Assembly: GCA_016234115.1 (NCBI GenBank)
Contig: JACRHD010000039.1
Coordinates: 1 to 64,000 of the forward strand
Source of the DNA: Nitrospirota bacterium
Lineage (GTDB): Bacteria > Nitrospirota > Thermodesulfovibrionia > UBA6902
DNA length: 64,000 nt
Reading direction: 5' to 3'
The translations under genes and the position numbers were made by a program. Positions 2,277 to 59,550 of the stretch are shown here, piece by piece; the stretch's first letter is position 1, and each line of letters opens with the position of its first letter. The notes beneath the pieces were generated by a model. That model was not told the origin of the DNA and made no database searches. It saw nothing but the letters and a program-made list of their open reading frames with translations.

Positions 2277-2320
2277 GTGGTGTTCATACAATTATGTTGA
2301 TGCAAAAAGGACACTCTTTT

Positions 2321-2783
2321 AGAGTCATGAGTCATAAGTCAAGAGGTAAGAGTCAAGTGAAAAGATCAAATCCTGCGCTTGATTGAATTAATTAGGCTGT
2401 TGAGCATTTTATTTATTGCCACCGATTCCAACTCTAATTCGTTATAAACATCGGCGTCTAAATACAGCAAATCTTTTGAGAGAAGCAGGAAATAACGGAC
2501 TTCTTCTAATGACCCTCTTGATTGATAGAGGAATTGCATGAATTCCTTCGGTGTCTTGCGAGCATGCCCTTCAACAATATTTGCCGGTACAGAATATGCG
2601 GCCCTTTTCAACTGATCTGACAGAGCATATCTTTCTTTAACTGGAAATTTGGCGACCACCTGATAAATACTAAGGACTAATTCGTGAGCCTTTTCCCATA
2701 CTTTCAACTTCTTCCAATACATAAACTGTCCCCTCTTTCTTTTTCATGATTCTTAACTCATAACTCTTAACTCTTGACTCTAA
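2321..2783. mobile_element. Candidate element: four-helix-bundle gene between inverted heptad arms
   Basis: The forward arm 2321-2357 (AGAGTCATGAGTCATAAGTC and onward) and reverse arm 2748-2783 (TTAACTCATAACTCTTAACT and onward) are complementary degenerate 7-bp repeats of one family. The four-helix-bundle gene lies between them. The whole unit is about 463 bp, close to the 461 bp of the second such unit at 4139-4599. The right arm is flanked by the direct repeat TGTCCCCTCTTTCT at 2727-2740 and 2787-2800. Calling it mobile is inference from structure. Confidence 0.45.
2366..2722 (-). CDS. Four-helix-bundle protein (S23/23S rRNA IVP family)
   Basis: A 118-residue protein predicted to be all-helical. 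Family features are visible in order: an N-terminal LKVWEKAHELVLSIYQ helix, SDQLKRAAYSVPANIVEGHA, EFMQFLYQSRGSLEEVRYFL and a final LESVAINKMLNSLINSI helix. This is the family first described as the protein of intervening sequences in 23S rRNA genes, and it is related to the Avd accessory protein of diversity-generating retroelements; nucleic-acid binding is the likely role. The gene sits alone, bracketed by GTCAAGA-family heptad arms in opposite orientation (2321-2357 and 2748-2783). A weak GAGGGG site precedes the ATG. Confidence 0.85.
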   Translation of the reverse strand: MYWKKLKVWEKAHELVLSIYQVVAKFPVKERYALSDQLKRAAYSVPANIVEGHARKTPKEFMQFLYQSRGSLEEVRYFLLLSKDLLYLDADVYNELELESVAINKMLNSLINSIKRRI

Positions 2784-3388: not shown

Positions 3389-3544
3389 AACCACGGAGAC
3401 ACTGAGGCACAGAGCCAAGTGAGAAGTGAGAAGTTGGAAGTAAGAAGTTGGTTCGCAAAGAGATAAGAAAACTGACAAACTTCCTACTTCTTATTTCTCA
3501 CTTCCCACTTCTATTTTTCTCCGTGACTCTGTGTCTCTGTGGTT
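3389..3544. repeat. Composite palindromic element, ACCACAGAG family with AGTGAGA inner arms
   Basis: Outer arms (AACCACGGAGACACTGAGGC at left, CTCTGTGTCTCTGTGGTT at right, period 8 bp) enclose inner arms of AGTGAGA/AGTTGGA heptads and a spacer containing AAACTGACAAACTTCCTACT. The spacer is also present in the element at 10096-10227, so these two are true copies and not merely similar arms. Confidence 0.8.
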
Positions 3545-3794
3545 AGTCTGTAACCTTATAAACCAGATCGTTCTTCCTGACGAAATCCGTTATCTTGATC
3601 CCTACTATATACCCCTTCGCTGCTTTTTCCACCTTCTGATGCTTTAATTCCATAGAGTCAATGCGTTGTTCGAAATCCGTTGTGCGACCTATGATATGAA
3701 TGTTATCACCGAACTTAAGGTTGTCAACGACTTCAACAGATGCAACGCCGATTCTTCCATAATATTTAATTATCCTGCCGGCAAGGGTCTCCAC
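3543..3794 (-). CDS. Translation elongation factor-like protein (EF-Tu domain 2-like barrel)
   Basis: A small single-domain protein of 83 residues from the chosen start. The pattern AGRIIKYYGRIGVASVEV, then LKFGDNIHIIGRTTDFEQRI, then KGYIVGIKITDFVRKNDLVY matches the beta-barrel found as domain 2 of translational GTPases and as the stand-alone EF-like protein of many anaerobes, often linked to U32 peptidases; the function is unsettled. I chose the GTG at 3794, because a longer frame from an ATG at 3836 would translate the repeat element at 3807-3958, giving a meaningless N-terminus (MSPCLSASVVF). Confidence 0.75.
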   Translation of the reverse strand: METLAGRIIKYYGRIGVASVEVVDNLKFGDNIHIIGRTTDFEQRIDSMELKHQKVEKAAKGYIVGIKITDFVRKNDLVYKVTD

Positions 3795-3806
3795 ATTATT
3801 ACTGAA

Positions 3807-3958
3807 AACCACAGAGGCACTGAGACACGGAGACACGGAGAAAGAAGTTGAGAAGATATGATGTTATGAAGATGGGAAAAAACCAAAAAACACCCTGACT
3901 CAACCTCTCATCTTCTCAACTTCTTATTTTCTCTCCGTGCCTCCGTGTCTCTGTGGTT
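3807..3958. repeat. Composite palindromic element, ACCACAGAG family
   Basis: Outer arms are CACAGAGG, CACTGAGA, CACGGAGA, CACGGAGA (period 8) at left and the complementary CTCCGTGCCTCCGTGTCTCT at right. Inner arms are GAAGTTGAGAAGAT and ATCTTCTCAACTTC. The element separates the EF-like gene from the small gene at 3971-4117. Confidence 0.8.
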
Positions 3959-3970
3959 AAAGATCAGATG

Positions 3971-4117
3971 TTACGCGTTGCCCTGAGGCGCGGCTTCCTG
4001 ACCCTTTTCCTTATGAAGCTCCGTTATGCTGGTGACCTTTATCCCCGCCGCCTGAAGGGCTTTCTGTATATCCACGGCCTTCGCGTCCTGAACTTTCAAC
4101 ATATAGTTGATGTCCAT
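3971..4117 (-). CDS. 48-residue small protein of unknown function
   Basis: A short frame with the features of a real gene: ATG at 4117 preceded by AAAGGAGG with 5-nt spacing, and a TAA stop at 3971-3973. The protein starts MDINYMLKVQDAKAVDIQKA, continues LQAAGIKVTSITELHKEKGQ and ends EAAPQGNA. The first 36 residues have an alpha/beta pattern (a helix DAKAVDIQKALQAAG followed by a strand IKVTSI) like a tiny ferredoxin-fold fragment. It contains no Cys and no membrane segment. I do not recognise the family. It is bracketed by repeat elements on both sides and is not evidently co-transcribed with the EF-like gene. Confidence 0.65.
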   Translation of the reverse strand: MDINYMLKVQDAKAVDIQKALQAAGIKVTSITELHKEKGQEAAPQGNA

Positions 4118-4138
4118 ATGTCCTCCTTTAAAATTAGT

Positions 4139-4599
4139 AAATTCGAAATCCGAAGCACGAAATTCGAAACAAATTCAAAATTCAAATGACAGATTATTCA
4201 CTCTTGCGCAATATTGCGCCGAATATATTCATAAGCTCTGTAGCTTCAGATACTAACTTATTTCTTTCATTTTCCTTTTCCGGTTCGTCTTGAGTGTCAA
4301 CCAATTTCAGCCAGTATCTGCTCTCTTTAGCTTCCTTACGTGAAATCTTTACTCTCATAAGAAAATCTTTTTTACTTAATGCTTCATTCGCCTCTATGTA
4401 GTTCGCTCCAACAGATCCGGACGCTTTTACCAGTTGTTTACTATCCTCAATATTTCCAAGAGTCATTCTCAATTTTTTTACAAACTCTCTTATTCTCTTT
4501 GCAAACTCAAAGGTACGATTTTCCAAATCATACTGTTTTGAATTTTGTATTTCGGTCATTCGAATTTGTTTCGTATTTCGAGTTTCGTATTTCGGATTT
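4139..4599. mobile_element. Candidate element: second four-helix-bundle gene between inverted heptad arms
   Basis: The left arm (4139-4186) is AAATTCG, AAATCCG, AAGCACG, AAATTCG, AAACAAA, TTCAAAA heptads. The right arm (4535-4599) is the inverted counterpart (TTTTGAATTTTGTATTTCGG, then GAATTTGTTTCGTATTTCG, then AGTTTCGTATTTCGGATTT). The arms match each other better than they match the arms of the other four-helix element, as expected for ends of one unit. The unit spans 461 bp. Mobility is inferred, not shown. Confidence 0.5.
4194..4559 (-). CDS. Four-helix-bundle protein (S23/IVP-like), second copy
   Basis: A 121-residue all-helical protein from the chosen start. Diagnostic stretches are RTFEFAKRIREFVKKLRM, the family hallmark QLVKASGSVGANYIEANEAL, and DFLMRVKISRKEAKESRYWL. 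It is only distantly similar to the copy at 2366-2722, so this is not a recent local duplication. I chose the ATG at 4559; the frame is open to 4613, but those extra 18 codons are translated repeat (the right arm). Even at 4559 no ribosome binding site is obvious. The gene occupies the spacer of the inverted heptad repeat at 4139-4599. Confidence 0.8.
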   Translation of the reverse strand: MTEIQNSKQYDLENRTFEFAKRIREFVKKLRMTLGNIEDSKQLVKASGSVGANYIEANEALSKKDFLMRVKISRKEAKESRYWLKLVDTQDEPEKENERNKLVSEATELMNIFGAILRKSE

Positions 4600-4637
4600 A
4601 AGCATTGTATCAACCTGCTACACTCTAAATCAAGTGA

Positions 4638-23372: not shown

Positions 23373-23454
23373 ACAGGGTCAAGGGGCATGGGGCAAGGGT
23401 AAAGAGCCAGGTCGTGGTTTTTCCTTGACCCTTGCCCCCTGACCCTTGACCCTT
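23373..23454. repeat. Inverted GGGGCAA heptad element
   Basis: AGGGTCAAGGGGCATGGGGC at left and CCTTGACCCTTGCCCCCTGA at right, with a short spacer. The same heptad occurs inside hemC (29721-29754) and at 55173-55206. Confidence 0.75.
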
Positions 23455-45257: not shown

Positions 45258-45347
45258 AGTAGTAGTTTGTAGCAAGTAGTTGGTAGTTAAGGGATACGCT
45301 TTTTGAAATTTTTCCCTTAACTACTTACTACTAACTACTTGCTACCT
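45258..45347. repeat. Inverted AAGTAGT heptad element
   Basis: Left arm GTAGTAGTTTGTAGCAAGTA plus GTTGGTAGTTAAGGG; right arm CCCTTAACTACTTACTACTA plus ACTACTTGCTACC. It lies between dnaJ and hspR; second copy of the family at 29967-30046. Confidence 0.85.
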
Positions 45348-59453: not shown

Positions 59454-59467
59454 TCAATTGAATCACA

Positions 59468-59550
59468 GAGTTTAGAGTCTGGAGTTTGGAGTTTAGAAAA
59501 AAATCTTCCATGCTTTTCACTAAACTCCGGACTCTATGCTCTAAACTCTA
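59468..59550. repeat. Inverted GAGTTTA heptad element overlapping the protease 3' end
   Basis: Left arm GAGTTTA, GAGTCTG, GAGTTTG, GAGTTTA; right arm CTAAACTCCGGACTCTATGC plus TCTAAACTCTA. The right arm encodes the last residues (LEFRA) and stop codon of the protease gene at 59534. Confidence 0.8.

Follow-up and report, generated by a model that had tools for sequence, protein, structure and literature searches.

A small gene between inverted heptad arrays in a Nitrospirota genome: a probable copy of a widespread mobile S23 cassette

Introduction

The described system closest to the locus reported here is the intervening sequence (IVS) of 23S rRNA genes, an insertion with complementary ends which, like this locus, harbors an S23-type (PF05635) open reading frame. 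The IVS of Coxiella is 428-444 nt in length, is bounded by 28-bp inverted ends and contains tandem GACAGAT heptads in front of the S23 ORF, which lies in sense orientation (PMC4990558). Copy number of the heptad unit varies between Coxiella strains, IVS transcripts are cut by RNase III in the stem, and a pentamer was described for the S23 protein (PMC4990558). S23 and Avd have a common fold (PMC10053308). Tandem heptads also occur between genes in Beggiatoaceae, where the TAACTGA repeats consist of one fixed word and are arranged as direct repeats before start codons (PMC4679880).

Here, a 64,000-nucleotide stretch of a Nitrospirota genome, referred to as the window, was analyzed together with related genomes and a wider set of S23 loci. 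An earlier note on this DNA had proposed that a four-helix-bundle gene and two matched inverted heptad arms form one unit.

Results

The window harbors at 4194..4559 (minus strand) a gene for an S23-type four-helix-bundle protein of 121 aa, which matched the profiles TIGR02436 (72 bits) and PF05635 (50 bits), both above cut-off. Past its stop codon lies an arm of AAATTCG-type heptads (4139..4186), and an inverted match of this arm is found at the gene start (4535..4599); together, arms and gene span 461 bp. When 4139-4186 was aligned with the reverse complement of 4535-4599, a score of 26 was obtained, compared with a mean of 7.9 and a maximum of 16 for shuffled window arms (n=5000). The core of the alignment (4139-4179 and 4559-4599) comprises 41 bp without gaps, of which 33 are identical. 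The earlier note had placed the gene exactly in the spacer of the arms; it does lie between them, but the right arm enters its first codons, with the start codon (4557-4559) inside this arm and the same start kept in the orthologue of another genus (G015). At a score at which other periods gave 0-3 tracts and shuffles 0, 17 tracts of period 7 were counted in the window.

Upstream, the cassette is neighbored by a divergent polysaccharide deacetylase gene (PF04748; 4638..5444, minus strand), which served as marker for the orthologous junction in relatives. Between this gene and the cassette, a promoter-like sequence was read (4604..4633, minus strand; TTGATT, 18 bp, TACAAT), which is conserved in G015, G001, G031 and G033 and which in relatives lies in front of the downstream 48-aa ORF (MDINYML...; 3971..4117, minus strand; ribosome-binding site GGAGG). 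The cassette begins about 4 bp after the -10 box and is carried in the 5' leader of the 48-aa ORF, between promoter-like sequence and ribosome-binding site. At the same junction, G015 contains an orthologous S23 cassette with AATTTCG arms, the copy number of the heptad unit differing between this genome (G000) and G015. The congener G001 has a short gene-free hairpin with the word of the window cassette, a remnant which looks like a deletion derivative, and no cassette was found there in G031 and G033. Depending on the congener, the leader (4118-4637) and its orthologues (L188-L191, L194) harbor S23 cassettes or heptad, CACAGAG or CACAGATT hairpins. The leader of the MDINYML ORF is a hot spot at which hairpins of several unrelated families are found.

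A second S23-type gene (PF05635, 128 bits) was detected by profile match at 2366..2722 on the minus strand. Repeat analysis revealed its arms at 2320..2356 (AGAGTCA/AGAGGTA heptads) and, as inverted partner, at 2751..2782 (AACTCTT/GACTCTT), the word type being AGAGTTA/AGAGTCA; extra arrays of this word are located at 2163-2193, 2247-2270 and 2832-2859. In addition, the window contains at least 8 inverted heptad pairs without a gene, among them 3417..3511 (AAGTGAG, nested in a CACAGAG-type hairpin), 23375..23454 (AAGGGTC/AAGGGGC), 45261..45339 (AGTAGTT, the word of an S23 cassette on contig C27) and 59467..59549 (AGAGTTT). In 460 kb of this genome, 163 heptad tracts were counted. This abundance, and the gene-free hairpin of G001 at the very same site, support the proposal of the earlier note that the unit is a gene-bearing form of gene-free heptad elements. 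Gene-free hairpins of the CACAGAG/CACGGAG type, with heptad hairpins nested inside, were also observed at 3390-3545 and 3790-3960; they bracket a 97-aa ORF (3543-3836) without a Pfam match.

The words of gene-free arrays were compared with those of S23 cassettes. In G000, 25% of the arrays resembled the genome's own S23 words (foreign words ≤8%) and in G028 13% (foreign ≤6%), whereas arrays in G004 were not closer to own words (4% own vs 19% foreign). With an excess of own words in G000 and G028 and not in G004, mobilization of gene-free arrays by S23 proteins of the same word is no more than possible. Taken as a reading of mobilization in trans, the comparison gave a positive result for G000 and G028 alone out of three genomes.

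Matched arms flank five of the seven PF05635 matches of this genome, and each of the five has a word type of its own (AGAGTTA, AGTAGTT, AAATTTC, AAAACTC and AAATTCG), while arms were not detectable at L005 and L007. The earlier note had proposed to look for matched inverted repeats beside four-helix genes of relatives. Among 63 S23 genes of 41 related genomes, such arms were detected at 75%, in comparison to 2% for mispaired flanks, and 46% of the loci have a period-7 tract in both flanks. In a wide set of 99 S23 loci from Bacteroidota, Proteobacteria, Cloacimonadota, Clostridia, Planctomycetes, Omnitrophota, others and viral contigs, collected by a scan with a profile from 7 sequences, 74% had matched arms (3% mispaired). 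As controls, hisF (0/29) and true DGR Avd genes, which belong to the S23 superfamily and have the same fold (0/14), were used; neither had matched arms. Among 256 ORFs of 90-180 aa (1.26 Mb, taken for the most part from regions other than known S23 loci), four matches were found, two of which were the S23 genes of the window, so that ORFs of similar size other than S23 have matched arms in less than 1% of cases. The unit of S23 gene and matched inverted arms is a property of about 75% of the family against some 1-3% in controls. The earlier note had regarded orthologues lacking arms as evidence against the unit. Such genes make up about 25% of the family, so that arms are usual in it but not universal. 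Up to 14 S23 genes were counted per genome examined, and a crude motif test revealed no rRNA context among the collected S23 loci. Taken together, the matched arms round S23 genes across many phyla suggest that these genes belong to a widespread mobile element, the rRNA insertions being one case of it.

S23 cassettes were co-directional with their neighbors in 54/59 and 57/67 cases (both neighbors), unlike Y1 transposase genes and the few viral loci. In 68/120 cases the stop codon of the upstream gene lies within the first arm, and the downstream gene starts about 9 bp past the second arm. Values of dN/dS of about 0.05-0.16 were obtained for 8 of the measurable S23 pairs (L003/L150: 0.07); the S23 protein is under strong purifying selection. 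Several further observations were made on gene neighborhoods. At L015 and L016, from two congeners and with one word, an S23 cassette lies directly upstream of an apparent cas1 gene, and at L149 (G005:C330) a cassette with very long arms lies directly downstream of an apparent group II intron-type reverse transcriptase. The Y1 transposase loci L103-L105, L108, L110, L117, L123 and L126 have fixed inverted ends, e.g. GGGACACATCCCAT and GGGGTCAAACCT. In the 41 relatives, GxxExxY (PDDEXK_3, PF13366) genes also had matched inverted flanks (59% of 22 vs 4% mispaired), as seen at L071, L074, L077, L079, L090 and other PF13366 loci. Their flanks have a period of 9-10 bp (CACxGATxxx, TGATTnnnn) and not of 7, and the genes are likewise co-directional. 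GxxExxY genes may represent a second class with an architecture like that of S23 cassettes and a 9-10-bp period.

The repeat period of the arms was 7 bp, in some of them 8: the autocorrelation of 264 arms was +0.20 at lag 7, +0.16 at lag 14 and +0.04 at lag 8, and negative elsewhere. The heptad word differs from element to element and matches between the two arms of one element. S23 pairs from different sites with at least 70% protein identity had the word in common in 8/9 cases (89%), compared with a background of 4% in unrelated pairs. In five same-site pairs the word had changed and the arms of each cassette were still matched, which demonstrates that the two arms change together. Since the word can differ with S23 proteins still 64% identical, the link between word and protein sequence is a loose one. 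Arm length shows a peak at 28-41 bp (4-5 heptads), a median of 40 bp and a wide spread. Two candidate explanations of the heptads were rejected: stop codons as the cause of period 7 (61% of units vs 52% in shuffles, within the null range), and a common heptad motif, of which only a weak GT[GTC]ARNN was found (information content 2.55, null maximum 2.39). Inside the S23 gene of L003, a third heptad palindrome with the cassette's own word was observed in frame (L003:753-800).

An alternative which we regard as unlikely is that the arms serve the RNA, forming a double-stranded mRNA stem which is cut by RNase III as in rRNA IVSs and kept by selection. Indeed, pairing of the arms is found in the fold of the window unit (-116 kcal/mol, z -4.8), the cassettes are co-directional, and the cuts in IVS transcripts fall in the stem (PMC4990558); any inverted repeat, however, forms a stem anyway. 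No sign of G.U tolerance was found: 130 transitions between arms were wobble-compatible and 173 were not, so that wobble-compatible changes were not in excess, and the arms seem to be conserved as DNA repeats and not as an RNA stem. Moreover, the arms have a common word but not a common unit order (44/72, combined p 0.6). The same count, not being significant, led us to reject the idea that one arm is copied from its partner.

That the cassettes may be mobile is suggested by the comparison of L003 of this genome with L150 of a congener. The two are 86.6% identical over 544 bp, are located at unrelated sites, and their similarity extends no further than the arms. As the arms accompany the gene and mark the limits of the homology, they are part of the element. 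The earlier note had also proposed to search relatives for empty sites, and these were found at the hisA-hisF junction, which measures 0-2 bp in most relatives and harbors cassettes in G008, G014, G030, G032 and G026, that of G026 being from a different S23 lineage. Here, hisA is not cleanly split; array sequence stands in place of its end. Target duplications were seen neither at hisA-hisF nor for L003/L150, where the edges of the element are blurred by the arms. In G040, the S23 copies L167 and L168 are 95% identical and are followed by repeat arrays with a unit of about 70 bp; a fresh transposition from this pair was considered and rejected, with the ends obscured by the repeat block.

Heptad arrays might also originate from replication slippage and be homogenized between arms by template switching, with the S23 gene as a bystander. 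We consider this quite improbable. It would agree with the joint change of the arms, with the variable unit copy number in Coxiella strains (PMC4990558) and between G000 and G015, and with the great number of gene-free arrays, but it does not account for the presence of arms at S23 genes as opposed to like-sized genes, hisF or true Avd, nor for the occurrence of one unit together with its arms at unrelated sites.

Movement in trans by a REP-associated Y1 transposase or by a reverse transcriptase, Avd being a relative of S23, is very improbable: although Y1 genes, with inverted ends of their own, occur commonly in these genomes, S23 and Avd have a fold in common (PMC10053308) and the sense orientation would fit an RNA intermediate, searches found no reverse transcriptase in 25/41 genomes, this one included, and no Y1 gene in several S23 genomes, e.g. 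G010 (100% complete), G014 and G016, so that neither enzyme seems required (some assemblies being incomplete), and Y1 genes are bounded by fixed words (GGGACACATCCCAT) instead of heptad arrays.

Discussion

The reading we prefer, and which we consider probable, is that the 461-bp unit represents one copy of a widespread type of small mobile cassette, an S23 gene between inverted heptad arrays. Two inverted arrays of about 4-6 heptads bound the S23-type gene. In the proposed mechanism, the cassettes take up positions between genes, oriented with transcription, and are probably co-transcribed with their neighbors. In the transcript the arms could pair, looping the gene out as in the 23S rRNA IVS. 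We infer that a ring of five S23 subunits binds the arrays with one heptad per subunit; by this, it would pair the two ends of its own cassette as well as those of gene-free copies with the same word. Cutting and joining would be supplied by the host or by trans-acting enzymes. The solved S23 relatives 2gsc and 2rld were deposited with five chains, and the peak of arm length at 4-5 heptads would suit a five-fold ring in which each subunit takes one heptad, an idea which is weakly supported given the wide spread of lengths.

More tentatively, S23 might be the pentameric specificity factor of elements without a recombinase, one that reads private 7-bp inverted arrays, keeps them in step and mobilizes gene-free hairpins of the same word; this is possible, though we would not call it likely. 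For PF05635/TIGR02436, which are common and unexplained small proteins of environmental bacteria, the arms define a physical unit and its end sequence and offer a ligand that can be tested. The word of each copy is a prediction, namely that its S23 protein should prefer its heptad. Many intergenic heptad hairpins would be explained as gene-free relatives of S23 cassettes, and the rRNA IVS, the origin of which was called unclear (PMC4990558), would fall within a much larger class of elements. In the literature searched, with preprints and most subscription journals outside the search, we found no description of heptad arms round S23 genes outside rRNA, nor of a larger class uniting S23 cassettes and rRNA IVSs.

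Intergenic tandem heptads are also represented by the STRR heptanucleotide repeats of cyanobacteria. Unlike the cassette arms, the TAACTGA repeats are direct and not inverted round a gene. MITEs and REPINs, the latter with REP-associated Y1 transposase, resemble the cassettes as small intergenic inverted-repeat units with many gene-free copies. They differ in that the cassettes end in variable tandem arrays, carry a gene other than that of a transposase and showed no target duplications. A MITE or insertion sequence is defined by a transposase, its own or one acting in trans on matching ends; the window unit carries an S23 gene only. Avd of DGRs belongs to the same protein superfamily as S23 and is, according to the literature, a nucleic-acid-binding ring, but true Avd genes lack heptad arms. 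With the Avd profile NF033474 the window genes scored below cut-off, and no reverse transcriptase was found in the genome.

The closest parallel remains the 23S rRNA IVS, to which the earlier note had already likened the unit, and the comparison holds in size (428-444 nt in Coxiella vs 461 bp), S23 ORF, sense orientation, inverted ends, the 28-bp ends corresponding to 4 heptads, and tandem heptads, which for IVSs are reported in Coxiella only. The location is different: the IVS lies in a 16S or 23S rRNA gene, the window cassette at the junction of two protein genes, and an Rfam scan of the window gave no match. Given this location, the unit is no rRNA IVS, although it would function in the manner of one. 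Furthermore, every S23 cassette has its own word, unlike rRNA IVSs, and the protein of the cassettes is under clear purifying selection, whereas that of Coxiella is reported to decay. We take S23 cassettes and rRNA IVSs to be members of one larger class.
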